Shown here piece after piece: positions 1 through 17,014 of a stretch of 64,000 nt of DNA. The number at the start of each line of letters is the position of its first letter. Within the stretch, counting starts at the first letter, position 1. Source of the stretch: Polytrichum commune (taxonomy: Eukaryota; Streptophyta; Polytrichopsida; Polytrichales; Polytrichaceae). The position numbers and the translations under genes are program-made. Under the pieces are notes generated by a model. That model was not told the origin of the DNA, ran no database searches, and worked only from the letters and a program-made list of their open reading frames with translations. Where the stretch lies: assembly GCA_950295325.1 (NCBI GenBank), contig OX485804.1, forward strand, positions 60,728,533 through 60,792,532. Reading direction: 5' to 3'.

Positions 1-66
1 GCTTAGTAAATAAAATCCTAAGAGAATAAGCATCAATTCTTTTATTAAATGAATATTTCAAAATAA
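1..66. other. flank left of the large element
   Basis: AT-rich sequence outside the left CACTA terminus. No gene is visible. The 3 bases next to the terminus are TAA, against TTA on the far side, so there is no clean in-register 3-bp target duplication. Confidence 0.4.
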
Positions 67-92
67 CACTATATTCGTTAAATTGAGACTTT
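67..92 (+). repeat. left TIR of the giant element
   Basis: Begins CACTATATTCGTTAAATTGA and ends GACTTT. It is identical to the reverse complement of 16487-16512. Immediately inside (about 82-108) is an imperfect stem-loop of GAGACT/AGTCTC type, a common subterminal feature of CACTA elements. Confidence 0.75.
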
Positions 93-595
93 CTCTAGTC
101 TCAAATTAATATATGGATCAAACAACATTCCGTGTTCCGAAACTATATTGCGAACAATCTCAAATATATTATATGTTCTAATATCCCAAATCTATTATGT
201 GTGGACATAAGCACATATGGTAGAGCACTCAACACCAACTTCATCAATAAAAACACTTTGGGTAGAGCACTCCAAACTAGTTTCACCCAAAAAACATATA
301 AAATGATTTCTATTATTAGCATGGTCAATAAAATATAGACATTGCAACATACAAAGTACATGCAATAAATGCATTTTTCTTCAATGGAAAATTTAGTCCC
401 AAACTTAATAAAAAAATGAACTTCACAATTGTATTGAAATATAGTAAATGGATATTCATCCAACCCCAAACAATATAGCATTCGCAAGTTCTACCCAAAC
501 TTTGCCCCAAGTTTGAGGAGCACACATATGAGTAATATATATTCGTCGAATTACTGTTTACACTATAATCATGCTAACACAATCCTACCAACTTC
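93..595. other. left subterminal region
   Basis: AT-rich and without a credible gene. It contains two copies of a GTAGAGCACTC motif (221-232 and 263-274) and weak relatives of the element's palindrome arms near 462-515. Positions 76-131 are closely matched at 6847-6905, the left end of the miniature copy. Confidence 0.45.
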
Positions 596-1804
596 TCATT
601 CAACGTGGGTTGCTTCTTCTGCGATCCGAGCAAGGTTGTCTTTTGCAAAAGTTATGTACTTTTGAGGGATGGACACTGATCCACTATGATTTTTCCGTGG
701 TTTCCATGCTATGAATATGGAATCTGTATCTACCCAAGATGGACCGTGCTCAGAATCCACCTTCCACCGAAAGTTAGGGTTTGTATCCCAGCCTGTATAA
801 TGCCGAACAACATCTTCATTCCGTGCTGTCGGTCGGTAGTACTCTACTTGTATTTGTCGAAAATGAGGGCTGGAAGTTACAAAATTTGGTTTGGACAAAG
901 CTCTTGCCACCCACACTGGCTTTGCATATGTCTCATCTCCAGGACGCAAAATGAGCATATAACCTTCATGACAATCCACTGCAATGCGGAAAGATGGTGG
1001 CGGACGACTACTAGCAGGCCCCACGTAATGGTCGTCCACATCAAACTCCTCACGAACCTCTCCATTACTCAAAAGACTAGCCTCCGAAGTTTGTACATTG
1101 ACACGTGTTTGTGGCCAAAACCCATGCCTTAAAGTAAGGGGTGTATCTTGATGAAGGTTTGCCAAAGCGCCACGAACACGTGTCCAATATTGTATCCAAC
1201 TTCCGTAACGAAGCCAACACGATCCACCAACATCCGCTACCCTCAAACTCTCCCAATATTGTATGAAGCCTGATATGCCTTTACAAATGTCCTCCAAATT
1301 CTTCATGGGTATTGGTTTGCAAGGCTTAGGCTCTCCGTCAGGCAACATCGTCCTTCCCTCCCCATCAACACGCCATACAAGGAGACCCTCCGGCGGGCTC
1401 CAGTCTTGTGACGTGCACAACAACTTATATTGCATGGCGGGGACACCATCGTCACGCACGTAGAACCGAAATTGTTGTGCCTTCGTATGTCCGATCAATC
1501 GGTGAGCTCCGCTTCGAATATACGGTTCTATAAATGCCTTGAAGTCTGGAACCTCCTTGATCATATGGGGGATGATGGGAATGTTCTCCAAATCCATGTA
1601 CGACTTCATCAACAATGGGATTGTCGGAAAATCCTCCTCGCGCAACTTCATGCTCCACCGCCCAAAAGATGCATCGATATCGTCGTGCGTGTGGCCTACC
1701 AATAGAAAGGACACAAAAACCTCCTTGAAAATGCCTTTCACAACCAACAATGACCAATATGCAAAAACATATCTACTTTTATTGTCCTTCGCACAATTGT
1801 CCAA

Positions 1805-1807
1805 TTA
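1805..1807 (-). other. in-frame TAA in the DUF7869-type gene
   Basis: On the minus strand the frame reads PPTLRV, TAA, LDNCAKDN without other change. The flanking codons stay in frame, so this is a point nonsense change. CAA to TAA (Gln to stop, C to T) is the simplest origin. Confidence 0.75.
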
Positions 1808-2085
1808 GACACGCAGAGTTGGGGGCAAATTCTTGGCAATCACATCTTCACTTGGTGGCTCCGGCAATGAATGCACGCATACATCTCTTCCATCCAAGAC
1901 CGCTTCATATAGAGGTGTTGATCCCGAGTTTTCAAATAACAATCTTGATGAATAGGACGGCGGTTTCTCCAAATCACGTAAAAGCTTTGCAAATGACCCT
2001 ATCGTGTGGTTTGAATCCGCCGGATACAAATCAAGAGCATAATGAGCATACTTGACATCACCATGTCCATGTGCAATCATCCTTG

Positions 2086-2225
2086 TAAAGCCAACCCAAT
2101 GGTTTAATATTCAACTATAACACCAAAAAATTCACATGGTGTACATCTATGGCCCCAAGTACAAACCTAAAGCACAAATTTGTGTTTAGGTAATGCAATG
2201 CAATTGTTATCGAAATCACCTGTAA
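2086..2225 (-). other. possible intron or frame break
   Basis: Coding identity stops after VSVTG near 2222 and resumes at MIAHGHGDVKYAHY (2080) in another frame. A GTGATT donor and a TTTACAAG acceptor can be seen on the minus strand, but joining them leaves the frame one base out. Either the acceptor has shifted or there is a frameshift. Confidence 0.45.
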
Positions 2226-2634
2226 CCGATACAGGAAGCTTAAAAAGGCCGTCCATGGCTTTTATTCGATTTGCAAAACATGGTGAGGCTGTTTTGGCAT
2301 GGTCCATTTTGTCATGGATGATTGTAAGGACCTCCAAAGGCCTAGAGATGGACAAAGCTCTATTTGTGTAGTAATCATTACGGTGTGCCTCTTGCATATT
2401 CATATGCTTGAAATAGTTCATTTGATGTGCGGCATAGGACTCTGTCCCCATCGTGTGTGCATCTCGAAGGCGTTTCAACTTCTCGCATTTGGAACAACGG
2501 GCAAATTTGTCGCCTCGTCTTTTTGTGATGTATTCGCTAAAGTGAGATTTTTTTATTGCACTCAGTTTCGACAACAAAATAGGGTCCAACCCAGCCTTCT
2601 CGCCAACTGCGTTTACGTCCAACAATATGTCTTT

Positions 2635-2637
2635 CTA
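2635..2637 (-). other. in-frame TAG in the DUF7869-type gene
   Basis: The frame reads LPTGTK, TAG, KDILLDVNAV; both sides belong to the same protein. TGG to TAG (Trp) or CAG to TAG (Gln) would explain it; both are C-to-T type transitions on one strand. Confidence 0.7.
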
Positions 2638-3839
2638 TTTCGTGCCTGTAGGAAGAACCTTCTCCACAACCTTTTTACCGGTTGCGAGTGTGCGTGTTTT
2701 GTGCGGCATTGCATCGGCAAGGGGGACAATGATGGTTGCCAGAGTGGCGGTTGCTTGTCTCGTTGCTTCCCTTGGTTTCTTTAAGCCCGTATTCCCATGG
2801 TGACGGGACCGGCGGCCTTCCTTGGCATACGTGGTTTGTCTATAAAATTCCGCTTTCGACACACCGTGAATGATGTACCATGCGGTACAACACACGTCTA
2901 TGCTCTCAAGGGTGATGACCTTGCGACCCGCTCCGTTCACATGTATCGCCCTATGGACATCAAGCTTTTTGGTGGATCTTAGATGGAAATCTCCAATCCA
3001 CATTTCCTCGCGGATGGCCTTCAATTTATCCCTTGGGAACAATTGGCAACAACGATGTACACAACAATCCTTTGTGGCAACTTCTCTAATGGACTCCTCA
3101 CAAAGCAACATTTGACGTTTACACTCATTTGCAGACGGAGTAGGACGTGCCAATGTATCGTACTTCCGTAGGCCTTTCCGTGGCCGAATGTTTGTTTGGA
3201 GCTCTTCTTGGATTTGGATGTGTCGTCGCTCATGCTCATGCAAATTAACCCCATCAATTGTCACATTCCTCAACGGCCACCTTCGCAACGAGAACCTATG
3301 AGTTGGATTCACTTCGGAATGTACGAGTGATTCCAATATAACAACTCCAACGTCTTCGGTGCCAAGGGGGTTTTCATCAATGCAATCTTGTGGATGTGTG
3401 TTACGACAAATACCCTCCGCCACAGCAACTCCACTGTCATTAACAAGTACTACATCCAAATTCACCCATGAAGCTCGTGAAAGCCCAGCACATTCCACAG
3501 TGGGGCAAGAAGGGGCAGATGGCGAAGGACTCCCCAAGTCACCTTCATCTGCACTGTCATCAAAACTATCCTCCCCAACAATGTCTAGCTCATCCCCAGA
3601 CGTAGATTGGGTGTTGCCCATGTCGTCAGAGAAGAAATCCCCTCTTCCACCAACTCCCTCCATTGCGCCTACACACATGGAAAGAATGTAAGGGTCCAAA
3701 AGAATCAAATATCGGAAAATGCAAGACACCATGATCAATGGGGACACCGAGGATGAAGACATTTCCAACACAACTACAATGTGAATTCCCAACATTGTGT
3801 GCAAGTCCAAAACAAGTTCCAGAAATTATTTTGGTGCGG

Positions 3840-4593
3840 GTTTGGGTCGACCGGCCCAAACCTCATAAAAGTCGGACTGAACCCCTAACACACTGGGGTA
3901 GGGGTTTGGGTCGACCGACCCAAACCTCACAAGGGTGCATCCACCCACACCAGGTAGGGGTTTGGGTCGGTCGACCCAAACCTCACAAGGGTCAGAAAAA
4001 AAAACCCTAACACACTGGGGTAGGGGTTTGGGTCGACCGACCCAAACCTCACAAGGGTACATCCACCCACACCAGGTAGGGGTTTGGGTCGGTCGACCCA
4101 AACTTGATAAGGGTCAGGAAAAAACCCTAACACACTGGGGTAGGGGTTTGGGTCGACCGACCCAAACCTCACAAGGGTGCATCCACCCACACCAGGTAGT
4201 GGTTTGGGTCGGTCGACCCAAACCTAACAAGGGTCAGAAAAAAACCCTAACACACTGGAGTAGGGGTTTGGGTCGACCGACCCAAACCTCACAAGGGTAC
4301 ATCCACCCACACCACGTAGGGGTTTGGGTCGGTCGACCCAAACCTGATAAGGGTCAGGAAAAAACCCTAACACACTGGGGGTAGGGGTTTGGGTCGACCG
4401 ACCCAAACCTCACAAGAATACATCCACCCACACCATGTAGTGGTTTGGGTCGGTCGACCCAAACCTGATAAAGGTCAGGAAAAAAACCCTAAGACACTGG
4501 GGTAGGGGTTTGGGTCGACCGACCCAAACTTCACAAGGGTCAGACATAAACCCTAACACACTAGTGGACAGGTTTGGGTCGGTCGACCCAAAC
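3840..4593. repeat. 13-copy palindrome array, about 120-bp higher-order repeat
   Basis: Thirteen 22-bp sites start at 3840, 3904, 3960, 4026, 4082, 4146, 4202, 4266, 4322, 4387, 4443, 4508 and 4572. Arms are GTTTGGGTCG and CGACCCAAAC with a 2-nt centre. The centre alternates AC and GT, so orientation flips at each site, and spacing alternates about 56 and 64 bp, giving a 120-122-bp unit. Spacers alternate between CATCCACCCACACCAGGTAG and CAGAAAAAACCCTAACACAC types. The array begins 177 bp upstream of the DUF7869-type start codon, so it lies in that gene's promoter region. Open frames across it (RPKP/STQT repeats) are by-products. Confidence 0.92.
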
Positions 4594-5507
4594 CTCATAG
4601 GGTCAGACTCAAAACCCGCCAACACTAGTATAAAGGTGAAGGTTCGCCCAAGTACACCACAAAATCCGGCGTATAATGCGGCGGATATTGCGTGGTGTGT
4701 TGAATTTGAGCTCATTGCAAAGTTCACGGTGGGTTTGCATGGTGTGGATAGGTGCTCATGAACTTGCATGCTATGGATAAGTGCTCATGAACGGCAGCAT
4801 GCACGAACCTTGAAGTACAGCTCCTACTAAGAGTTCTCTCTACGAATTCGACAGCGGGAGAAGAGAAAAAAAGGACCGACTTTTGGGGGGTGCGCCCCTT
4901 TATACTATCCACCTCCGCTTCCCAGACTTAGTCATTGGATGCCTTCCCCGCCTTCTTCTCTTGCAGAGGTTATTTCAAACCTCCTGACAGAATTCCCCGT
5001 TTTCTGTTTATAGTAGAAAAATGCGCATCTATCAATGCCCCTCTGATACCCCAGCCGTCATATGACTTAGTCTATGTTATTTAATCTATTTGTTTTGTTT
5101 TGTGTGGATATGACATACGCCATTGGGAGGAAGGGTGGCGGCCACATTAATTTTTTCAAGTATCATCAAGGTATATTTTAACCAATATGTAGACCCAAAC
5201 ACAACTCCATTCAATGCTTTCAAGTGTAAACCTATTTAGGTGGGGTTTGGGCGATTTGGAGGCTGCAATTATGAGAGAGTTTCCAAGGCTTGAGGCCATT
5301 GTCATAATGAATAGAATTATTTATTTGTCCCCCCTAAACCCTAAACCCTAGAACCTTGCTCTATTATCTCGCATGCAAGAGTGGCAATGACGAACGTATG
5401 TGGACGTTGTTAAGGGGATACTAACTACCAATGTCCCTTTCTAGTTCAATCTTTTAATGTTACTTGAATCCATCCTCAAGTTCACTTCAAGTTTACTAAT
5501 GTGTGAG
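4594..5507. other. non-coding stretch inside the element
   Basis: No gene is recognised. It holds a duplicated CATGAACxxGCATG-type segment at about 4740-4800, purine-rich sequence near 4855-4890, and a short telomere-like CCCTAAACCCTAAACCCTAG tract at 5331-5350. Confidence 0.4.
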
Positions 5508-6325
5508 AGCAAAACATCCAAGATTGGACCCTAAACCCTTATAACATCCACAACATGAAATACGCATTGACTAAATACAAAACCAATTAGGATATCATGT
5601 TTAAACGTCCCATATAACATATTAACATGATCAAGATTGTATTTACTATGACCTTCCGATTAGACTCTTCTTCATATTATGCAAACAATATATGTTATAT
5701 CTTCCTCCATTATCTAATACACGTGGAGAGAACAATGAATAACAACATGATGTTGTGCTTCTCCGATTTACTTTTACATGACATTCCATATATTAAATAC
5801 ATCATGAACGATGGTTTATTAGCGACTAATATGTGATTCCCTAAAGTGAGCGAAACATCCAAAGTTGGACCCCTAGCCCCTATTAACATCCACAATATTT
5901 CATGTTATTTGAATAAACACACGACCAATCAATATATCGCGTTTAAACGTCTCGAATAACAAATTAACATAATCAACATCGTCTTCACTATAACCTTCCT
6001 ATAAGACTCTTCTCACGAGTAAGACAATGTTATACATTGACATTGGATAGATTAATATGTTATAACCCTATCTCCTATCTCCTAAACCCTAAACCCTAAA
6101 CCCTAAACACCAAATGTAGTTGTGGTTCACTGATGCCCCCATATACAAACAACATCTATTTTATCTTGCGCCATCATCTAATATACATGGAAGGAACAGG
6201 GAATAACAACATGATTGCTTGAATGGCTTCATTTGATGTTGTGCTTATCCCATTTACTCTTATATCACAATCTATATATTAAATAAATCATGAACCATGA
6301 TTTATTGGCGACTATGTGATTCGTG
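5508..6325. repeat. degenerate tandem duplication of about 340 bp
   Basis: About 5508-5850 and 5847-6325 align along their length. Shared blocks include AAACATCCA(A)G(A)TTGGACC, TTTAAACGTC, the ATTAACAT.ATCAA block, TAGACTCTTCT and AAATACATCATGAAC/GATGGTTTATT. The second copy carries an extra insert that includes the telomere-like tract at 6081-6109. No coding function is seen. Confidence 0.7.
6081..6109. repeat. interstitial telomere-like CCCTAAA tract
   Basis: About four consecutive CCCTAAA units. TTTAGGG is the telomere repeat of most land plants and many green algae. Too short to be a true telomere; useful only as a lineage hint. Confidence 0.8.
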
Positions 6326-6840
6326 AAAGTCACGATCTAAGGGATGTACTTAAAACTTGAGCATGTTCGCATTTTCAAATAAGGATCGTGCATTTCAAAA
6401 CCCTTGCAAAATGCAGTTGGGGAAGGTATTCATTTATTAGGCTCCACACTCAATTATTCTAAATTGTTCCACATGTTGGGGGGTGTGGGTAATCTTTTTT
6501 TTTTCATTCAATATCGTGTGAATTGTTGGCATCATTGGTAAGGACTAAATGTGAATGGTTACATCGTTAAATATAACGCAATTATATGGTTTAAATTTTC
6601 TAACATGCTCAAACAAAAGAGAAACCAATGCCTTCAATGATTTTGGAAAATTTAGGGTATGGTGTCATGTAAGTAGGGAATAAGTATTAGTTTAGCATAA
6701 AGTTTTGTTGTAAGAATGCGCTGGCTATATAAATGGTTAGTTTTGTAGAATAACACATTTTATGTAGCACCTTAGGGTACTCCATAGTTCTTTTGAAAAA
6801 ACTAATAAGGGTTTAGAGCAGGGTCCAAAAGAACCTAAAC
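6326..6840. other. non-coding stretch
   Basis: AT-rich sequence between the degenerate duplication and the miniature element. No gene, motif site or repeat was recognised. Confidence 0.35.
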
Positions 6841-7093
6841 CCTAAAATTCGCTAATTTGAGATTTTCTCTTCTCTCAAATTAATATATGGACCACAACAA
6901 CATAGTGTAATGTTTGGGTCGTCCTACCTAAACCATCTTCATATGAGATCTTAATTGCGTTCTTGATATGAACACCCGCTTCAAAGTATTTGCATCTTAC
7001 AACATTCTCCAATGTACGTGCGATTTTATCCATTTTCTTATATTTGTAACTTTCTCAAAATGCCGAAAAAATCCCAAATTAACGAATATACCG
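6841..7093. mobile_element. 253-bp miniature with both ends of the giant element
   Basis: The left half (6847-6905, ATTCGCTAATTTGAGATTTT onward) matches 76-131. The right half (about 6950-7093, ACACCCGCTTCAAAGT through AACGAATATA) matches 16385-16509. Its ends are therefore diverged versions of the giant element's TIRs, with almost the whole interior missing and one palindrome-like site at 6912-6933. This is the structure of an internal-deletion, MITE-like derivative, here nested inside a full-length relative. Confidence 0.7.
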
Positions 7094-7740
7094 ATTAAAA
7101 CAAATGCAGCCTACAAAATTAGTGACTTAGCCTATAAAATTTTGAAAGTGTAGGACAAAGAGCCTATGGACAATTTAAAAACATAGGATATCAACCTATG
7201 TGATAAAAACATTTAGGAAATTTTGCCTAAATTTTTTTTAAAAGAAAGGATTTTAGCCATTCATCCTTCTTCAAATTGGGAAATTAGTTGGCCTAAGTAC
7301 ATATCTTTAGGCTATATCTTGCAGGAAGAGTAGAGGTTGAATGAGAACATGGTGAGAACTTTCACCCTTAAACTCATTTGAATTTTAGCAACCTTTCAAA
7401 ACTTATAATCAACTCTTTAAAAAAGACTTGGTTAATCCTTGGCCTTCAAACGTGGTGAAAGGCTTAGCCAGGTTCAATTCCTGCCAAGGATCCCACTTAG
7501 TACTCAAATTTTGATTTTAAAACCTACAACATTAAAAGATATGAAGGATTTTAACCTACTAAAATTTAGTTTTGAGGCAATTGGCGAGGAACTTACAAAC
7601 TCAAAAGGTTTTCAACTTACAAAAAGTTGATATTGTAGAATGCAACCTATGCTATGAGGCAAATAGCCTATGTACTCTTAAAGAGGTAGGCCCGCTAAGG
7701 GTTTAGAGTCAAGCGTTATGATTTAGGTTTTAGGGTTCCC
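7094..7740. other. non-coding stretch upstream of the ParB-like gene
   Basis: AT-rich with repeated short blocks (CCTATGNAAAAA..., TTTTAGCC). A tRNA-like 3' half with a B-box match GGTTCAATTCC occurs at 7471-7481 but no full cloverleaf was found. No gene was recognised. Confidence 0.35.
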
Positions 7741-7938
7741 TGTAACCCTGTTTCCGTGGGTGCCCTAATCCTGTGGGCACCCTATTCATGCGGTTGGGGG
7801 CCAATGCCCGAGGTAAACAAAACCCCAACCGTCGCATTTCTCATTTCTTTCTCTCTCTCTCTCTCCGCGCCTCGCTTGGAAGCGCCGCCTCTCCTGAAGC
7901 GCCGCTTTCGCAAAGCGCCGCGGCGAATCAGGCTTGGT
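7741..7938 (+). promoter_or_regulatory. putative promoter and non-coding first exon
   Basis: A sharp rise in GC content, a short inverted repeat GGGTGCCC/GGGCACCC (about 7758-7782), a CT-rich leader (TTTCTCTCTCTCTCTCTC, about 7850-7868) and then G|GTAAGT at 7939. This looks like a plant core promoter and 5' UTR exon ending at a good splice donor. The matching acceptor is directly before the ATG at 9226. Inferred from composition and splice signals only. Confidence 0.45.
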
Positions 7939-8224
7939 GTAAGTTAACCCTTCATTCTCCCGCGTTCATTGCTTTCTTCTGCATCTTCTTTTCCCTCCTT
8001 TCTTTTGCTCTTCAATAGAATAGCCCTTGTGCAATCTTAGAAGTTAGGAAGAGTTTTGAAAGAAACAGAAACATACGGAGGAAGGTTTTAGAGCATGAGA
8101 GTGAAGGAAGTTAGCAAAAGAGTGTTGAAGAGTATTGGAAAGTGCTGAAGGAAGTTAGTAGAACATTCGGTAGTAGATAAAGCTTCAATTTGGGAGGTCC
8201 AGGTGTTTGTACTGGAAGTTTTAG

Positions 8225-8530
8225 GAGTGCTTGTGAAATTCAAGAGTTCTTTAAGAGTATCAAGAGTTGTTTGAGAGTTTTCGAAGTCGTTTGAGAGATT
8301 CAGTAGTTTTGTGAGGGATTCAGGAGTGGGTTTAGACATTTCGAAGTCTTTTGAGAGGTTTAGTAGTTGTGTGTGAGATTCAGGAGTTGGTTTGGACATT
8401 TCGAAGGCTTTTGAGAGGTTTAGTAGTTGTGTGTGAGATTCAGGAGTTGGTTTAGACATTTCGAAGTCTTTTGAGAGATTCAGTAGTTCTGTGTGAGATT
8501 CAGGAGTTGGTTGAGAGATCCAAGAGCTAT
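8225..8530. repeat. 60-bp tandem repeat
   Basis: Successive units starting near 8279, 8339, 8399 and 8459 share TTTCGAAGTCTTTTGAGAG and GATTCAGGAGTTGGTTT, with a more diverged unit on each side. An open minus-strand frame across it (MSKPTPESHTQLLNLSK repeats) follows from the 60-bp period and is probably not a gene. Confidence 0.85.
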
Positions 8531-8771
8531 TTGAGAGAGTTGATACTTGTTTGAAAGTTTCTCATTGAACTTTCTCACAGTTTGTTTGATATTGAGAATT
8601 ATTGGAAGAACAACCTGCTCTACTCCAAATTGTCTGCACAACATCTTTGAAAGGTATTGTGTTTTATTTTAACCAATATGTGTTTGTATATTCACGGTTT
8701 TGTAGCATACACAATGCATAAGCATTGTATATGCTAGATGCCAAGTTTTAAAAATACATTAAAATAATACT

Positions 8772-9199
8772 ATTTGGGGAGACGACCCAAACACAGCCTT
8801 TTGTATGGGTCGACTGACCCAAACACAGCCTCTTGTTTGGGTCGACCGACCCAAACACAGCCCCAAACACAGCCCCTTGTTTGGGTCGCTCGACCCAAAC
8901 ACAAAACAAAGCATCATGTTTGGGTCGAACGATCCAAACTAAATCTTCTAATTATAAACTCATAAAGAAATCCATGATTTTTGCATCAATATAAAATTCA
9001 CATCAACCCAAAATAATAATCAAGGAATGTATCAAGGAAAAGTATCAAAGAATCCTGCATGTCACAAACAATATAAAATGAAAATCCACCCAATAATCAC
9101 AACATTCTTATTATCATTACAAATGATGCTGAAATATATAAATACACAATCCACCTAAACCTATTCATGTCGTAGATGTTTGGGTCGAACGACCGAAAC
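8772..9199. repeat. palindrome cluster upstream of the ParB-like gene
   Basis: Six copies or variants of the element's 22-bp palindrome start at 8772, 8803, 8835, 8879, 8918 and 9178. The copy at 8835 is intact; the others differ by one to several bases (centre CT, AA or CTG variants). The last lies only 27 bp before the start codon at 9226. Confidence 0.85.
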
Positions 9200-9225
9200 T
9201 AACTTTGCAGATTATTTTCTTACAG

Positions 9226-10551
9226 ATGGCTCCAAAGAAAAGACCCGGCGAAAGGTGGTTCATGCCTGCGCCGGACATGTTGTGGCAGGAGCACGAAACC
9301 CCGCATGATGGCTCCTATTCCCCTAAGGACGGGCTTGTCCTCGCTTGGTCTATTCAAGTAGTCAAAGCCTCAACATACAAAATGATTTTTGTTGTCAAGG
9401 TGGGAACCGTGGAGAAACACACCTGGGCGACTCTTACGGGATGGGAGGTCGCATCGGTACAGTCTCTTGGAGACTATACCGACGTCATCCTCGAGAACTC
9501 GGCTGTGCAGAACGCGCATATGTTCATGCACCAGTTCTCCAAGCCTTTCGACGCACTCTATGCAAGAGAGTCCTGTGTCGAACCAGAAGTTATCAAGCCG
9601 GAGACAATATTTATCGATGGGGGTACATCGAATACCAAGGTCTCAAGCCGGTTCACAAAACTAAAACATGCAATAACCGTGCTGAACAGGGGCCTGCAAA
9701 GCAAAACCAAATCACAGCAACCTGTGAGGCGGAAAGCTCCCACAGAGGAAGGAGCAGGGTCGTCAAGACCTCAATCGGTGAGGATGCCGCTACCAGTACC
9801 GGCTGACTCGCGTAGGACCACTCCCTCCCAAACACCTACGAATAGTGAGACCCCTACACCTTCTGGGAGCCGTCAAACAACTCCATCCAAGAGGGCGAGA
9901 GAGTCATCTGTGATGACTGACGAGCCAGTCTCACCGGAGTTGCGCATGCCGAAGCCCGGCGAAGAGGTGGATGCAGGGGAGCTGCAGAAAATCATGAACA
10001 ATTTCACGACGAAATGCTCCCACTGTTTTTTCATGGGCAGGGATTTCAAGTTCGACGTGAACATCAGCCAGTGCCATCTAGCGCCACCGGAGAAGTGTGT
10101 CCGGGCAAAGGAGGACGCCTACGTTGACTGGATAATCGCGTAGATCGTTTGCGAGCAGTTTAAAAACGACAGGCAAACGATTGTAGTGATGCCACAGGGT
10201 CTCAAGAAAATGCCTACACCTGAAATGTGGCCAACAATTCAGAAGGGCGATTTTTGGTTGATAGACGGCCAACACAGCGTGGAGGCATCCAAGAAAATCC
10301 AACTCATGAATGAGTGGGACGATCCCAACAATCAGAAGGAAAAGCTGAAGGTTTGGAAGGCACTGGTGGTGTGGTCTGACGACGAGACCAAGCTCAGCGA
10401 CATCTCCCGGTACTTCAATATGGGAAACAAGAAGAGGGCCTACCAAGCTTCCTGGATAAGGAATATCATGGCCTCGCGGGAGGTGTGGGAGTTCTATGGT
10501 AGGCCTCCCAAGGAGAGGGAGAATGCGAAGGACAAGAATCCCAAGTGGGAG
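9226..10551 (+). CDS. exon 1: N-terminal region and ParB-like domain
   Basis: Opens MAPKKRPGERWFMPAPDMLW. A Ser/Thr/Pro-rich linker (TPSQTPTNSETPTPSGSR) separates an unknown domain from the ParB-like domain. The ParB-like part runs from FDVNISQCHLAPPEKC through AYVDWIIA, an in-frame TAG (10141-10143), IVCEQFKNDRQTIVVMPQ, to GDFWLIDGQHSVEASKK and DISRYFNMGNKKRAYQ. This matches the ParB/Srx pattern of a proposal helix followed by a DG-H-x-x-A loop. Ends WE|GTGAGT. Confidence 0.6.
10141..10143 (+). other. in-frame TAG within the ParB-like domain
   Basis: The frame reads VDWIIA, TAG, IVCEQFKND; both sides are the same domain with no shift. CAG to TAG is the simplest origin. Confidence 0.75.
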
Positions 10552-10771
10552 GTGAGTATTGTTTGGGTCGACCGACCCAAACTCCTGGTGCAGTCTTGTG
10601 TTTTTTTTAGTTTGGGTCGATCGACCCAAACAACTGTTGCAGTCTTGTGTTTTTTTTCAGTTTGGGTCGATCGACCCAAACTCTTGTTGTAGATGTTGGT
10701 CATGATATGGTTTGGAAATCACATGTACTTAACTAACACGCATTCAAATGTTTTGTTTTGTTCACGTGCAG
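10552..10771 (+). other. intron 1, carrying three palindrome sites
   Basis: GTGAGT donor and TTCACGTGCAG acceptor, phase 0. Sites begin at 10561, 10610 and 10660. The last two have centre AT, making each 22-mer a perfect self-complementary palindrome. Confidence 0.75.
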
Positions 10772-12103
10772 GATTTCAAATACCAAATGATCAACAAATT
10801 CTCCTCTATTGATAATTCGAGCCACAAGCAGAAGAAATACAGCGACCTCAAGGGGGAGATTTACTTGATTACAGCATCGGACTCAGTTTGGAGGAAGTGG
10901 AAAACCGTGTTTGAAAAGCACGAGACGGGGGATTTGATCGACCCCGACACTGGCATTTTCTTCAGCCAAACCTCGCGCTTCAAGCAGATGAAGCCTCTCG
11001 TGAGAGAGTTCTTTAGAACTCTTCAAGGGCTGTCAGAGACGGAGGTGGAGAAGGCGGCATCGCACATCCTGCACGTGGCACCCACGGCCAAGAGGTGTTG
11101 GGTGCATCCGAAGATTGTCTTCGTAAAGCCCAAATCCTTCGTTCCTTCATGCTACACCATGAAGGAATGGACGGAGAACAGGAAAAAGAAGACGATTATC
11201 GTGCAGGAGCTGCATAAATTGGTGCCAGAGAGGAATATTGTCGTGGACGGCGAGGTTCATGGGGCTAACTGGAGAGCATTCAAAGATGAATATAAGTTCA
11301 CCAGTGCCTCCATGGCGGCTCTAATAAGGGAAGCGGGGGACGACTTCTTGCGGGCCAAGATGGTGAAGGGTGGGAAGAACCGGGCGCTTCCGGATCACAC
11401 AGCACGTGCGTTCTCGAACTTCATCAAGGAGAAGAAGATTGTCCAGTTTGAAGGGGACGCTTACTTCAACCTTGTCACCTTCGAGACTTTGAAAATTCAG
11501 GGCTGGCCAGGTCAAGACGCCAGAATGGCGATAAGGACGAAAGCAAGGGACCGCTTTCCTTTTGGGATGATTGATTTTAGAAATATTCCTGGAAGCTCAT
11601 TTGAGGGCACGATGAGCACCCTCTTCTACGACCCCTTCTTAATTAAGTTCGTCGATTATGCAAGCCCTAAGTTCAGGGAGGTAGATATCTGGCTTTGGAT
11701 AGTCGAGGATAGAAGGGCGGAGCAGGTGTACGAGCTTGTCCGAAAACTGCAGCCGGAGTATGCAGTGTCCAAGTCTCACTACATCGCCGCACCGGCGGAG
11801 GGGGCTTACACGACGTTGAAGGACAAGAAGACCAAGTTTGTCAACGTCTTGTGTTTGTACTTCATGTACAAAGCGGAGTTGCTGAAGGTGCCAAACCACC
11901 CTATATCCCGGATGGACAAACTCTTCCAAGTTCCAGAAGGGTTGGGTGCGAACAAGTGCCTCTACGACGAGGCTAAATACGCGAACTATCCTGCAGATGA
12001 GCTGCGGATGGAATTTTACATGAGAATGATGAGGACGCTGACGAGGAGAGGGGACTGCATCTTCAACGTCTTCGGAGGCTCAAAACCTGTCTATGCTGCT
12101 ATG
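10772..12103 (+). CDS. exon 2: methyltransferase-like core
   Basis: Open throughout (DFKYQMINKFSSID...). A basic region (ENRKKKTIIVQELHKL) precedes SPKFREVDIWLWIVEDRR, where amino-methyltransferases carry the catalytic (D/N/S)PP(Y/F/W) motif; here that tetrapeptide is absent. Near the end, RRGDCIFNVFGGSKPVYAAM resembles the AdoMet-binding motif I of permuted enzymes. Possibly a catalytically altered or non-enzymatic derivative. Confidence 0.55.
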
Positions 12104-12263
12104 GTAAGTGACTTTCTATAGCTCGTAAGCAGTTTGGGTCGATTGACCCAAACTAGGCTCTTTGCAGGTTTGGGTCGACCGACCCAAACTACACATTTCA
12201 CTTAGTCTTGTTTATGTGACTGCCTCGACAAATTCTAATTTCCCTATAACTTGGATTGTGTAG
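12104..12263 (+). other. intron 2, carrying two palindrome sites
   Basis: Donor ATG|GTAAGT, acceptor TTGTGTAG|ATG, phase 0. Sites begin at 12132 (centre variant ATTG) and 12168 (intact). Confidence 0.75.
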
Positions 12264-13751
12264 ATGTCGGGGCTGAATATATACTCCTACATAGAGGATG
12301 GCGATCTGCCATTTTATAGGGTGCAGAAATCGCTGGCGAAGAAGATGGACATCCTCGATTGGATCCCGGGTAGCTACGTCGACGAGGTTGTTCAGGGTGG
12401 CGAAAACCCTCTTGATAGGGTGAGGCGCATCAACCCGGAGGAAATGGCCATGAGGGCCACGACCCAAGTTCCCGAACCTCTGGTCGGGTTGCATCCGGGC
12501 AATCCGTCCCGCACAGAAGGTGGCGAGGTTGAGGAGGAGGAGGAGGAAGAAGAGGAACACGAGGAGGCGGAGAAGGAAGGCGACGTCGAGGAAGGGGCAA
12601 CGGGCTTCACGCAACAATCCGAAGCCCCTCAACGGAAGAAGGCGATGCGGGCGGCAACCCCGCAGAGTAAGCTCGTGCCCGTCCTGACTGTGGACGATGC
12701 ACGGGACATGTACTCCAGGGACGCCACCGCGACGTTCAGGGAGAGGAGGAAGTTATAGGGGAAGAAGCTGTATGGCGACTACTCCGTGGAGGAGACCATT
12801 GCCATAAGCAGCGAGGACGACGATGACATTGAGCTCGCCAAACGGCTAAGATCAAATCCCCCGTCCCCGACAGCGTTCTCTGGCATGGTTAGGGTGAAGC
12901 CCGAGGTCCTGACTGTGGAGGAGGCGAACGAGAAGATGAGGAGGGACGAGGAGCAGCGAGTCCGCTTGCAGAAGGCTGCCGCGGAAGAACCCTCAATGCG
13001 GAACGAGGTCGCAGAGCTGAGGGCTCTCCTGTTGGAGCAGGAGCGTCAAAGGGCGATGGCCCAACCTCCGTCCCACGCCGACTTGATATCACAAGTGATA
13101 CAAGGAATGTGGGCGCAAGGTTTGGTGGTGGCTCCCTCCAGCTCCTTCCCGCACTTGCCCCCCGGCTTCCCTCCGCAGAGCATCCCTCAGCAGCTTGTGC
13201 CGCAATCGTCTTTCAGCTTCCAGCACTTGATGCGGCCCCACCAAGTTCCGTACGCGCCGGTCCAGCAAGTGGATGACCCCAACATCTGGTGCGTCTTTGG
13301 AGCCTCCTCCCCTTTGGGCCCTCCACCACTTCGGCCCCCCATAGTCATGGCGCCACCCCACCAATCGGACGACCCCAGGATGTTTGGGTCGACCGACCCA
13401 AACCCACCATCCATTGTAGTGTCCGAAGGGCCCTCTCCAGATGCAGGACAGTTTGGGTCGGGCGACCCAAACCCCGTTGCAGCGCAGTCCTCCCTTGACC
13501 AACATGGGTGTCAACTAGACACGGCCATGCTAGATGTTGAAGGCCTGCAAGGGCCTGGTGATACCTCTACTCCTAACCAAATCGATGAACCCATGCATGA
13601 TGCACATGCGGAGATTGGTTTAGGACAAGGGCCTGATGCCGATCGTTTGCAGGAGAAGGTTCCTGACGTCGTCGGAGAAGGCGGTGGCGAGAGAGGCGGG
13701 GCAGCGGGGACGGTGGAGGCTTCCACATCGTCGAGACATGACCAGGGCGAG
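12264..13751 (+). CDS. exon 3: end of methyltransferase-like fold, acidic and Pro-rich linker
   Basis: MSGLNIYSYIEDGDLPFYRV continues the motif-I strand-helix unit of exon 2. Then follow an acidic run (EEEEEEEEEHEEAEKEGDVE), an in-frame TAG at 12756-12758, a short coiled-coil-like stretch (MRRDEEQRVRLQKAAAEE) and a long Pro/Gln-rich disordered region. Two copies of the palindrome (13382-13403, 13451-13472) lie in the reading frame and encode FGSTDPNP and FGSGDPNP. Ends GAG|GTAATA in phase 0; without splicing it would stop at TGA 13761. Confidence 0.5.
12756..12758 (+). other. in-frame TAG in exon 3
   Basis: The frame reads RERRKL, TAG, GKKLYGDYSVEETIAISSED and stays open for 330 further codons. 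Fourth in-frame TAA/TAG in the element's genes. Confidence 0.65.
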
Positions 13752-14237
13752 GTAATACACTGAGCCTTCCCAGTTTGGGTCGACCGACCCAAACTTCCTG
13801 GGTCACTGTCTTGTTGGCGTGGTCGTGTCCCCCTTGCTAGGAGGAAATGCACACCCCCTGCCCCCCTGGTCTACACTTGCTCCCCCTCCCCCCAACGTGC
13901 CCCCCCGCGATCCCCTTCGTCTCACCTGCATTCGACTACGCTCGACCTTGGCGGCGCGCAACCAATTTTGTAGATGTAGAATTAGGATAGTGTGAATGCC
14001 CTCGTTCACCGCCCCCCCCCCCCCAAATCAAATTGTACATAGAGATTTGTAAAAATAAAATTATTATTTTTGGCGCCCATATGTTAGCATCCGTGTCCCA
14101 ATGTATGTTGTTCCCTTGTATGTTTTTGTTGCCACCAATGGTCCAATTCTTCTTGTGTTTGCACAAAATTTCCATTCTGCTTGAGATGGACATAGCATAA
14201 CATAGTCCTCGCCGCCTTCTCTCGCTCGTCGCCGCAG
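13752..14237 (+). other. intron 3, C-rich, with one palindrome site
   Basis: Runs from GTAATA to GTCGCCGCAG. It contains an intact palindrome at 13773-13794, pyrimidine-rich tracts (13850-13925) and a run of about 14 C residues near 14011-14024. Both ends are phase 0. Confidence 0.5.
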
Positions 14238-15050
14238 GGTTTGGAGCATAGCGTCGCAGCTCCCCACCGATCCTCTCCGAGGAGTGTGGAGGACAGCGCG
14301 GTGGTCCCCCCGATTTTGCCCTCGCCACCTTCGCCTCCCAAGACCCGGTTCCTGGTGCTAGACCTCAACGGGGTCCTTGTCCAGTGCGTGCATTGTCCGA
14401 GGGTCCCAACGGTGCCTTTCTGCAAGCCCGAGGACGCCAACTACGATGGACCCCCCGCGTACATCAAAAGCAAGCTAGTGTACCTCCGCCCGTGGCTTCG
14501 GCGCTTCCTACAGGTCGCCCTATCCAAATGGTGGGTGATCATTTGGAGCTCCATGAAGTCCGAGAATACCCAGGCCGTCGTGGAGTTCATCTTCAAGGGA
14601 CTCCAACCCCCGTGCTTGGTCCTAGGACAGGATTCTTGTAAAACATTGTACACCCCCGAGGGCAGGGTTGTGAAGAAGCCCAACAACCCCGCCGTAAACC
14701 AATTTCTTAAGGTCTTGAAGCCAGTCGTATGGGACCAGCGTCCGACCATGGTCGGCTGTCCCTACGACGTTCGCCCCACCCGTGACAACACGTTGATGGT
14801 GGACGACAGCGCTTCCAAAAACATTTTGAACCCGACCTCCAACTTCATCGTTTGCCCCACGTGGACAGTCGAGAAGGTCCGAGACCGCTTTTTATTAGAC
14901 CTACTTAAGTACATTCAAACGCTCGTGGGGAGCGGACTACCCGTGCCCCGGTTCCTTAGTTGTAATCCGATAGGTGAAAGATACATGGATCCGAAGGACT
15001 ATATGTACAGAGAGTTGTACGCTTACGCGAAATATAATAAACTCATTTGA
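14238..15050 (+). CDS. exon 4: FCP1/NIF-type HAD phosphatase-like domain
   Basis: FLVLDLNGVLV (motif I, D1424, with Asn in place of the usual second Asp), VIIWSSMKSENTQ (motif II, Ser 1486-1487), and TLMVDDSASKNILNP (motif IV, DD 1571-1572). The order and about 200-residue length fit the NLI-interacting-factor/FCP1-like HAD family, whose members dephosphorylate phospho-Ser/Thr proteins such as the RNA polymerase II tail. The substituted second Asp may weaken activity; DLNG forms also exist in plant relatives as I recall. It follows exon 3 in phase 0, so it is probably the C-terminal module of the same protein, but it could be a separate gene. Confidence 0.68.
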   Translation, partial: GLEHSVAAPHRSSPRSVEDSAVVPPILPSPPSPPKTRFLVLDLNGVLVQCVHCPRVPTVPFCKPEDANYDGPPAYIKSKLVYLRPWLRRFLQVALSKWWVIIWSSMKSENTQAVVEFIFKGLQPPCLVLGQDSCKTLYTPEGRVVKKPNNPAVNQFLKVLKPVVWDQRPTMVGCPYDVRPTRDNTLMVDDSASKNILNPTSNFIVCPTWTVEKVRDRFLLDLLKYIQTLVGSGLPVPRFLSCNPIGERYMDPKDYMYRELYAYAKYNKLI

Positions 15051-15169
15051 GATACTACATGGTGTGCCATTGTGTGTGATATAGTATGCCTCAATTGTAT
15101 ATCGATTTTCTCATGCTCCCCCCCTGCCCCCCTCCCCTTGGGTTTTGTTTGTTTTAATTTTGCCATCAG

Positions 15170-15523
15170 CGTTTGGAGCCCTCGATTGAGATCGTCAGCG
15201 AATCAAACTTGGGGAGCTTCTTCTACGAGACCGTCTACGATGCCACGTCCACCATCGACTACTCCAAGGAGCCTCTTGACGCCGGCGTCGTCGATAGCCC
15301 CCCACCCAAGCAAATCTTCCGGCGATCTCCGTCCCCGTCGCCGCTCAAGGGCATAAATCGCAAATGCGTCCGGACGTCCCCCTCTCGGCCCGGCGGCAGT
15401 AGTACACCTCAACGGCGGCTGCGGATGGACGCTCGGCCTACGAAGAGTGGCACCCTTCCTATTCCTTTGCGGGACGCATTGCCCCTCCTCGCCGACTCCG
15501 ACGGGAACGCCCCTAGTGACAAG
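15170..15523 (+). CDS. exon 5: Ser/Pro-rich exon, alternative tail or separate gene
   Basis: Acceptor TTTTGCCATCAG|CG, then RLEPSIEIVSESNLGSFFYE and a Pro/Arg-rich stretch, ending DK|GTGAAC. It starts in phase 0, like exon 4, and the two share GTTTGGAGC at their starts. Exon 3 could therefore splice to either. Exon 4 itself ends in TGA with no good donor before it. Confidence 0.42.
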
Positions 15524-15655
15524 GTGAACCCCCCCCCCCCCAAAACATGGTTAACCGCGCATTACAATCATCCGGCACTTAAAAAATGAACGTGTGACAC
15601 GTTTGGGTCTTCCTCCCTAAACTAACACGTGTGTTCTTGCATTCACGCGTTGCAG

Positions 15656-15973
15656 GTTGCTCCCACCCGTAGACCTATGCGGGCTAGTGCGTCCGTCGAG
15701 TTGGAGCGTTTCTACTCCATGACCAGAAATGCAAGACAGTCCACTTCATCGTATTCGAATTCTTCGTCGTATAATTCGGGCGGCCGACGGAATCCAAAAT
15801 GTGTTATTGATGGCGGTCACCCCAAGAATGGCTATAGTCGCAGGGCGGAGATTTTCAGGAATGTTGAAGCAATGCGAGCAAAAGAAGCCGCAGCAAAAGA
15901 AAAAGAGGCAAAAGAAAAAGAGGCAAAAGAAAAAAAAGCAAAAGAAAAAGAGGTAGTCTCCGAGGCTAGATAG
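15656..15973 (+). CDS. exon 6: Lys/Glu-rich C-terminal exon
   Basis: Acceptor CGCGTTGCAG|GTT, phase 0, then VAPTRRPMRASASVELERFY, an Asn/Ser/Arg-rich stretch and an AKEKEAKEKE repeat run ending EVVSEAR-TAG. The upstream intron carries a palindrome variant at 15601-15622. Function unknown; a basic, charged tail could bind nucleic acid. Confidence 0.42.
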   Translation, partial: VAPTRRPMRASASVELERFYSMTRNARQSTSSYSNSSSYNSGGRRNPKCVIDGGHPKNGYSRRAEIFRNVEAMRAKEAAAKEKEAKEKEAKEKKAKEKEVVSEAR

Positions 15974-16486
15974 GCCATAGTAGGCGTAGGGTTTTGGGCC
16001 ATAGGCAAGAACATTTTGGGTCGCACTATCCAATGGATGTGTTGTGTTAGCATGCTATGCATTTTACATGCCACACTTTGTATGTTTTTTTTTTGCAATA
16101 ATATAAGTGTCACATGATTTCCCCTTCCATATGGTCTAAGGTTTGGATTGCCCTACCTAAACCATCACAAATATGAGTTTGGAATATTTTGTATGTTATA
16201 TTATATTGGTTCACATATTTCCCCTTCAATATGATCTATGGTTTGGATTGCCCTACCTAAACCATATTCATACAAGTTTTTGTGCGATAATATGAATGTT
16301 TTAAGATTTCCCCTTCAACTTGGCCTAAGGTTTGGATTGCCCACCCTAAACAATCCCAAATATTGAGTTATTAACGGGGTTCTTGTTCTAAACACCCGCT
16401 TCAAAGTGTTCGCATCTTACAACTTTCTCCAATATGTGTTCCATTTATCCTTGTTCTTATTTCTGTGAATGTCTCAAAATGCCCAA
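15974..16486. other. right subterminal region with decayed palindromes
   Basis: Three variants of the motif (GTTTGGATTGCCC(T/A)(A/C)CCTAAAC type) start at 16141, 16241 and 16330, spaced about 90-100 bp with partly repeated spacers (CCCCTTCAAT, ATATGA). From about 16380 the sequence matches the right half of the miniature at 6841-7093. Confidence 0.65.
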
Positions 16487-16512
16487 AAAGTCTCAATTTA
16501 ACGAATATAGTG
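16487..16512 (-). repeat. right TIR of the giant element
   Basis: Perfect 26-bp inverted copy of 67-92, ending ATATAGTG. Confidence 0.75.
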
Positions 16513-17014
16513 TTAAATTAACTAAACTAAACTTAATTCATAATTAATTCATAAGAATACAAATTTAGGATATTCCAAGAATCTGAAGTAATTACGTGCC
16601 AAAACGATTAAACATATGGAGTAAACAACGTTGACTATCAAAAATATCTTTTAACTTAGTTTATTTACCTTAATAATATAATATTCATTTTTCCAATTGT
16701 CTTTTGATACTACTAGATTAAAAATGGCTTATATATTTAGATTAAAAAAATCAACAATAGCTAAGTCCTTGGAAAAACAATTCAATTCAAGTGAAATGTG
16801 GAGAAGTAAAAGTCAACGTAAATACCCGTCCCCCCTACATGAATCAACCCAACTTAAGAGATGTCAAATTTTTATTGAAAATTCATTTATTCTCCGATTT
16901 TGGTTCTCTTCTCGGTCTCAACCCTGTGAAGATCAAAACTCCATCATTTTTAGTTTTTTTTTCTTCAACTCCAACCGTTTCCAACCTCAACCAATTCCAC
17001 CCTTGATTGAAAGT
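16513..17014. other. flank right of the large element
   Basis: AT-rich, no recognised gene. No further copy of the palindrome motif was seen from here to the end of the window. Confidence 0.4.

Follow-up and report, generated by a model that had tools for sequence, protein, structure and literature searches.

A high-copy Sola-like transposon of the moss Polytrichum commune with a ParB-like gene and a palindrome that recurs in a MULE-like element

Accessory genes that join ParB-like and methyltransferase domains are already known from algal transposons, including a giant Sola1. In the available part of PMC12477816, Sola1-1_Ec32 of Ectocarpus is described as a 21.5-kb Sola1 element with a divergent gene for a ParB-like and methyltransferase protein of 1104 amino acids (aa), and similar ParB-methyltransferase proteins are cited for transposons of green and red algae. 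The other close comparison is VANC of the Arabidopsis VANDAL elements, which exerts anti-silencing by binding motif arrays: its targets are tandem motif repeats in introns and upstream regions (PMC5735166), and both the binding and the demethylation have been proven (PMC5735166, PMC10398659; available excerpts of both). Here we describe a mobile element of the moss Polytrichum commune that resembles both systems in part. It is a Sola-like DNA transposon of 16,450 bp that lies in a stretch of 64,000 nt (hereafter the window; GCA_950295325.1, OX485804.1:60,728,533-60,792,532, forward strand) and was followed through a genome of 407.8 Mb in 64 contigs, in which 34 WRKY exon matches agree with a land plant. 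The element carries a likely transposase gene (gene 1), a second gene with ParB-like, methyltransferase-like and NIF/FCP1-like parts (gene 2) and arrays of a 22-bp palindrome, which was also found in a MULE-like transposon with unrelated ends.

The ends of the element were defined by comparing the window with 19 end pairs picked from the genome end listing, some of them long and one short. In all 20 pairs the CACTA was preceded by AA and the TAGTG was followed by TT, the true ends being AACACTA…TAGTGTT. With this boundary, an exact 4-bp target duplication flanked 19 of the 20 pairs; the exception, with ends 36.9 kb apart, reads AGTA on one side and ACTA on the other, one base apart. No 4-bp duplication was found among 380 crossed, mismatched end pairs used as a control, and none of the 20 pairs had a 3-bp duplication at a CACTA boundary. 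Searching the genome with joined flanks recovered empty sites, that is, uninterrupted related sequence of 85-99% identity, for 8 of the 11 elements queried; all eight are related rather than allelic sites, and one is within tandem repeats. The duplications and the empty sites together indicate that the two ends move together, and the element is a real mobile unit. A first-pass annotation of this DNA, made from the sequence alone, had likewise proposed a single unit. It had placed perfect 26-bp inverted repeats at 67-92 and 16487-16512; the repeats are perfect, but they extend over 28 bp (65-92 and 16487-16514), so that its boundary fell 2 bp short at each end. The empty sites that it had suggested looking for exist, though with a duplication of 4 bp instead of the anticipated 3. 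The window contains no further match to the terminal repeat at up to 4 mismatches. The internally deleted miniature reported earlier is, within the window, just a nested end fragment with nothing similar outside the element, whereas an internal-deletion derivative of 4.78 kb is present at C1:42393157-42397936. This derivative is flanked by the target duplication CACT and retains the transposase end and the right 1.8 kb, without the palindromes.

According to the available parts of the literature, CACTA elements have CACTA/CACTG ends and 3-bp target duplications, while Sola elements encode a DDD transposase, produce 4-bp duplications and in some cases exceed 15 kb (PMC10741241). The duplications of Sola2 are AT-rich (PMC3627910), and Sola terminal inverted repeats range from 11 to 1124 bp, the group being known in the moss Physcomitrella (PMC10741241, PMC3627910; excerpts). 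The moss element has in common with Sola the AT-rich 4-bp duplication (19 of 20 pairs), a terminal repeat whose 28 bp are inside this range and a size above 15 kb; it fits Sola by its ends, duplication and size and is here called Sola-like. That it is instead a classical CACTA (En/Spm) element, as its earlier description as CACTA-ended implied, is very improbable. The letters CACTA and TAGTG do stand two bases inside each end, and the size exceeds 10 kb, but the terminus set by the duplication is AACACTA and not CACTA/CACTG, the AA and TT outside these letters are constant, a 3-bp duplication is missing from 20 of 20 pairs while a 4-bp one is present in 19, and gene 1 has no TNP2-type Pfam match. 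Unless DUF7869, the domain of gene 1, groups with CACTA transposases, the duplication length refutes this assignment. A conjectured CACTA-type pattern matched 3 places in a search in which its control matched 7, and it was discarded.

As the first-pass annotation had expected, further copies with the same boundaries are numerous. At no more than 3 mismatches, the 26-bp terminal repeat has 1260 forward and 1255 reverse sites in the genome, and the reversed control has none on either strand. The first 100 end sites listed, all of them exact, include 24 pairs in head-to-head orientation, at distances of 14.4-18.5 kb. Provided that the ends are paired throughout the family and its members nearly complete, some 1,250 copies with a length of about 16.5 kb would occupy roughly 5% of the 408-Mb genome, which is an upper estimate. 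Five full copies picked from the end listing (A-E) are colinear with the window copy (W). Copies A, C and E, three of the six, have no stop in any of the six gene exons; four exons of W contain one stop apiece, B has two stops, and D combines a single stop with a frame break. Among the best 103 of 1750 candidate matches to DUF7869, identities are 96-100%, and 85 of the 103 have no internal stop; because these best-scored matches are so similar and mostly stop-free, the activity appears to be recent. For the first exon of gene 2 (P1, taken from copy E), the best 95 of 1177 candidates were scored and form identity groups near 95-100, 80-82 and 77-78%. The best explanation is an autonomous, recently active cut-and-paste element of about 16-17 kb.

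Gene 1, on the minus strand, consists of two long exons (T1 and T2, product about 976 aa), and gene 2, on the plus strand, of four (P1 to P4, about 443, 444, 497 and 270 aa across the copies, product about 1650 aa); the GT-AG junctions of both are common to the copies. The earlier reading of two divergent gene units with content unlike TNP2 is thus borne out. Both genes are under purifying selection, as judged from the ratio of nonsynonymous to synonymous divergence (dN/dS) between diverged copies: 0.17-0.26 for T1, 0.11-0.14 for T2, 0.06-0.075 for P2, 0.16-0.19 for P3 and 0.17-0.21 for P4. In P1 the synonymous divergence (dS) is saturated between diverged copies, with a dN of 0.09-0.14, and the closest pair, W and D, gives higher and noisy ratios (0.09-0.66) from few changes. 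Copies A and B have a dS of only 0.09 in T2 yet are saturated in P1, and B and E have a dS of 0.21 in P4; being close in one exon and saturated in another, the copies are mosaics. Two open reading frames 3' of gene 2, P5 (15170-15538) and P6 (15656-15970), are conserved (dN/dS 0.16-0.41 and 0.9-3.1, respectively); P6 gives no protein-level purifying signal, and neither is claimed as a gene.

The DUF7869 match of gene 1, already recognized in the first-pass annotation, has an E value of 4.6e-31 in the window and of 4.6e-38 for the joined exons of copy A. The domain contains the conserved acidic motifs IIHDKMDH, LDNCAKDNK and GHTHDDID, which we take to be catalytic, and the gene 1 protein is likely the transposase. 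No relatives of T2 were confirmed in viral contigs (30 pattern matches). A diverged DUF7869 gene at C1, about 2170306-2174562, is 27-37% identical to gene 1 and probably belongs to another transposon family; it is outside the MULE-like element described below.

The phosphatase-like module that had been proposed for gene 2 is confirmed as a Pfam NIF domain in P4 (E values 1.1e-13 and 9e-16, above the 21.8-bit cut-off). FCP1/NIF phosphatases have the catalytic motif DxDx(T/V); in the copies inspected this position reads DLNGVL, a departure that leaves activity uncertain. The ParB-like and methyltransferase-like modules of the first-pass annotation are tentative, with support from a motif, from weak profile scores and from the algal parallel. 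Against a profile of eight bacterial and phage ParB sequences, P1 scored 22.4 (hhalign probability 4.8); none of 100 shuffles equalled this score, the best of them reaching 22.3. The end of P2 aligned in register with motifs X-I of phage methyltransferases (probability 2.2), a result matched by 3 of 100 shuffles, and comparisons with wrong-partner profiles were flat, being equalled by 74 and by 50 of 100 shuffles. The motif [DNS]PP[YWF] is the catalytic criterion for N4/N6 DNA methyltransferases. It is absent from P2 of W, A, B, C and E, and catalysis has probably been lost; the data thus lend no support to the earlier idea of an element that uses an enzyme of its own to mark DNA, and a role of gene 2 in sensing or anti-silencing is possible. 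In viral contigs, no relatives of P1 (15 pattern matches) or P2 (100) were confirmed. A genome search with PF02195 found just four places, on the small contigs C10, C12 and C23; these are bacterial-type ParB genes, probably from bacterial contamination of the assembly, and the ParB-methyltransferase fusion protein on C12 served as a yardstick.

The palindrome, GTTTGGGTCG-NN-CGACCCAAAC, has 21 exact sites in the window, and all 21 are within the element: upstream of gene 1 and of gene 2, in each of the three gene 2 introns and in exon 3 of gene 2, with none elsewhere. In the window copy there is no exact site less than 3.7 kb from the left end or less than 2.2 kb from the right end. Each of the six copies has 21-26 exact sites. 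Genome-wide there are 9231, and the reversed control has none. A motif family confined to the interval, as first described, thus holds for the window but not for the genome, where the palindrome also occurs outside the element family. Among the first 100 exact sites listed, 77 are in three Sola-like intervals (one of which has just its forward end among the matches listed), 10 are in and 9 next to a MULE-like element, and 4 are elsewhere, so that 96 are within or beside elements that have a ParB-like gene. The 20 palindrome bases are constant while spacers and neighbouring coding sites vary. This can be followed in exon 3, where the 20 bases of the second palindrome are unchanged in all six copies and those of the first in all but one, which differs at a single base; windows of the same shape in this exon differ on average at 4.5-5.0 of 20 nt between copies, and of the 1394 such windows only 7 show no change among A, B, W and E, including two at the second palindrome site. 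No excess CpG decay was seen in the palindromes: mismatches at the 4 CpG positions among the 20 numbered 17 of 73 in the six copies and 16 of 57 in the MULE-like loci.

The MULE-like element (C1:2151945-2164288) is 12.3 kb long and has related inverted ends, unrelated to those of the Sola-like element, and an exact 10-bp duplication; a second copy (in C5:18455000-18482999) has its own exact 10-bp duplication. MULEs are recognized by 8-11-bp duplications and a SWIM/MULE transposase. The name MULE-like was chosen because a long transposase-like gene has a weak SWIM match (E 0.076, below the cut-off), with no MULE Pfam match. The opposite strand carries a gene in which a DGNHR motif is accompanied by a methyltransferase-like exon; this exon matches phage methyltransferases (probability 90.7, E 1.2e-6, 0 of 100 shuffles). 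The proteins of the Sola-like element gave no BLAST match to this element; its ParB-like exon compared with P1 was equalled by 1 of 100 shuffles, on 12 columns. For this exon there are 1187 candidate places, of which the best 150 were scored. Loci with 84-100% identical exons contain the 22-bp palindrome in nine of nine cases (1-11 exact sites), and loci with about 45% identical exons in none of five, at 3 mismatches. Other palindromes recur at the latter loci, GGTTTCGG/GGGTTCGG-NN with 14 and 12 sites and TGTCTCGG-NN with 8 and 4; at one locus CAATGAAG-NNN has 4 sites in a 360-bp tandem repeat, a number that overall does not exceed that in shuffled sequence. A further palindrome, CCTGTGCGTTAACGCACAGG, with 490 genome sites, is private to the MULE-like loci. 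Of the 50 sites listed, 45 lie upstream of a ParB-like exon at a distance of up to about 5.3 kb, and its 12-base core is absent from all six Sola-like copies. At C1:461704-462971 both palindromes occur with no listed ParB-like exon nearby, probably in a partial MULE-like copy.

Table 1. Features of the Sola-like element (window coordinates) and of diverged ParB-like loci elsewhere in the genome
Feature	Position	Strand	Evidence
Whole element, 16,450 bp, Sola-like DNA transposon	65-16514		28-bp inverted repeats, 4-bp duplication, colinear full-length copies
Target-site duplication AAAT, left copy	61-64		Flank comparison
Target-site duplication AAAT, right copy	16515-16518		Flank comparison
Left terminal inverted repeat, 28 bp, AACACTATATTCG...	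65-92	+	Inverted-repeat search, duplication boundary
Right terminal inverted repeat, 28 bp	16487-16514	-	Inverted-repeat search, duplication boundary
Gene 1, exon T2 (last; 494 aa) with the greater part of DUF7869, probable core of the transposase; one in-frame stop (window copy)	599-2080	-	Pfam, copy comparison, dN/dS
Gene 1, exon T1 (first long exon; 482 aa) with an acidic N-terminus and a region rich in Cys and His; one in-frame stop (window copy)	2218-3663	-	Copy comparison, dN/dS
12 exact palindromes and degenerate ones, directly 5' of gene 1	3841-4594		Palindrome scan
Nested fragment like both element ends (diverged end-only derivative)	6847-7090 (about)		End-sequence matches
Two exact palindromes 5' of gene 2	8835-8900		Palindrome scan
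Gene 2, exon 1 P1, 442 aa; ParB-like motif WLIDGQHSVEA; one in-frame stop (window copy)	9226-10551	+	Copy comparison, motif, profile
Three exact palindromes, gene 2 intron 1	10561-10681		Palindrome scan
Gene 2, exon 2 P2, 443 aa; beta-methyltransferase-like C-terminus without [DNS]PP[YWF]	10772-12103	+	Profile, motif scan, dN/dS
One palindrome, gene 2 intron 2	12168-12189		Palindrome scan
Gene 2, exon 3 P3, about 497 aa; low-complexity, acidic; two in-frame palindromes; one in-frame stop (window copy)	12264-13751	+	Copy comparison
Two palindromes in coding exon 3, read FGSxDPN	13382-13472		Palindrome scan, copy comparison
One palindrome, gene 2 intron 3	13773-13794		Palindrome scan
Gene 2, exon 4 P4, 270 aa and stop; NIF/FCP1-like domain	14238-15050	+	Pfam, copy comparison
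ParB-like exons, about 45% identical to that of the MULE-like element, beside tandem arrays that contain other palindromes	C6:18790500-18799500, C5:43304200-43307700, C1:10933500-10937000, C1:27968200-27971700, C1:52153500-52163300		TCGG-NN-CCGA cores in 4/5

Taken as a whole, the explanation that we consider best, with a probability of about 0.5, is a Sola-like element with a likely transposase gene and a gene for a protein that most likely binds the palindrome and perhaps counteracts silencing. Gene 1 would act as transposase on the 28-bp ends. The gene 2 protein, as a dimer, would bind the palindromes at both promoters and in the gene 2 introns, would thereby locate the element's own copies, and might keep them active against host silencing, much like VANC does for VANDAL. 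We infer that this protein recognizes the palindrome. The palindrome half-sites with a free 2-nt centre look like a dimer site, and each ParB-like lineage inspected has a recurring palindrome of its own, which points to element-encoded recognition. Anti-silencing as the outcome is a guess by analogy. Several observations weigh against this explanation. Sequence searches of Pfam, PHROGs and PDB detected neither the ParB-like nor the methyltransferase-like part of gene 2, hhalign probabilities for these parts are just 2-5 per cent, and the structure prediction suggested earlier for the translated exons yielded unusable single-sequence AlphaFold models (pLDDT, the predicted local distance difference test, 36.0 and 31.4); for these reasons, and with homology that appears weak, both parts are labelled '-like'. 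The ParB-like exon of the MULE-like element matches bacterial ParB no better than shuffled sequences do (54 of 100), and the methyltransferase-like parts of the two elements do not match each other (20 of 100 shuffles). The window copy itself is interrupted by its stops in four exons. Finally, the palindrome does not track ParB relatedness: two ParB-like genes that have diverged very far have it in common, and nearer relatives of one of them lack it. Either the protein of one family is used by the other, or a host factor takes part.

The second of these options corresponds to a rival explanation in which the palindromes bind a host transcription factor or insulator protein, the same site arose in or was acquired by several transposons, and gene 2 has another function. 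It would account for a palindrome common to two transposon kinds with very diverged ParB-like proteins, and the second, private palindrome of the MULE-like loci also favours it; however, the lineage-specific palindromes and the 96 of the first 100 listed sites that accompany ParB-like elements speak for the element's own protein, and we regard a host factor as unlikely. The palindromes might instead be sites of the transposition machinery, like the subterminal TnpA sites of Spm, with gene 1 or gene 2 bridging the ends and no anti-silencing. Although the unit contains them, and gene 2 has been conserved along with gene 1, they are near gene starts and in introns rather than subterminal, the palindrome-free 4.78-kb derivative has a clean 4-bp duplication, and the same palindromes occur in a transposon with unrelated ends, which makes such a function more unlikely still. 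Least expected of the three is an ordinary Sola-like element with captured genes, whose palindromes are passive slippage repeats or intron RNA hairpins. Many sites do lie in tandem arrays with unit lengths that vary between copies, but slippage is hard to reconcile with palindrome bases that stay constant while spacers and coding neighbours vary, even where they are part of a coding exon or of an unrelated transposon, and with the free 2-nt centre of a dimer-like site; the sites, moreover, are on promoter as well as intron DNA. This we consider improbable.

Bacterial parS sites are palindromes too, and the moss element resembles the ParB-parS system in its ParB-like motif and palindromic sites, with weak homology and no partition function expected; no ParA was seen, although no search was aimed at one. 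Its likeness to Sola1-1_Ec32 is that of a giant DNA transposon with a divergent gene for ParB-like and DNA-methyltransferase-like domains (PMC12477816, available part), and gene 2 is, as in the algal type, transcribed opposite to the transposase gene. It differs in its land-plant host, very high copy number, FCP1/NIF-like domain, low-complexity exon and palindrome arrays, in the absence of the active methyltransferase motif [DNS]PP[YWF], and in the presence of the same palindrome in a MULE-like element. With VANDAL/VANC it shares an element-encoded accessory protein and arrays of a short motif, differing by lineage, in introns and upstream regions (PMC5735166, PMC10398659; excerpts). VANDALs, however, are MULEs, VANC is not described as ParB-like in these excerpts, and its motif is YAGTATTAY, not the moss palindrome. 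The first-pass annotation had suggested a new lineage of giant transposon; with a giant Sola1 with a divergent ParB-methyltransferase gene already published (PMC12477816, available part), the lineage is not wholly new. New, as far as the literature was searched, are the land-plant case, the palindromes, the fact that two kinds of transposon carry them, the lost catalytic motif and the added FCP1/NIF-like domain; no report of such palindromes or of their sharing was found, in a set of searches of which few joined ParB closely with transposon terms.

The shared palindrome hints at a borrowed way for transposons to mark their own DNA. More tentatively, it is possible, though we lean against it, that plant transposons from different superfamilies have in common a portable addressing system of the ParB type, in which a lineage-specific ParB-like protein is paired with a palindrome with a TCG-NN-CGA or TCGG-NN-CCGA core (GTTTGGGTCG, GGTTTCGG/GGGTTCGG, TGTCTCGG). 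The MULE-like element, with both a private and the Sola-like palindrome, may then use or pirate the anti-silencing protein of the other family, and the protein may load at its sites and spread like the bacterial ParB clamp. Within the literature considered, sequence-specific anti-silencing by transposons has been proven for VANDAL/VANC. If the explanation preferred here is true, a second, unrelated type of protein with clear candidate sites, employed by transposons of two kinds with palindromes specific to the lineage, would make the evolution of transposon self-recognition testable by simple binding assays, and the published, unexplained ParB-methyltransferase genes of algal transposons would acquire a function.

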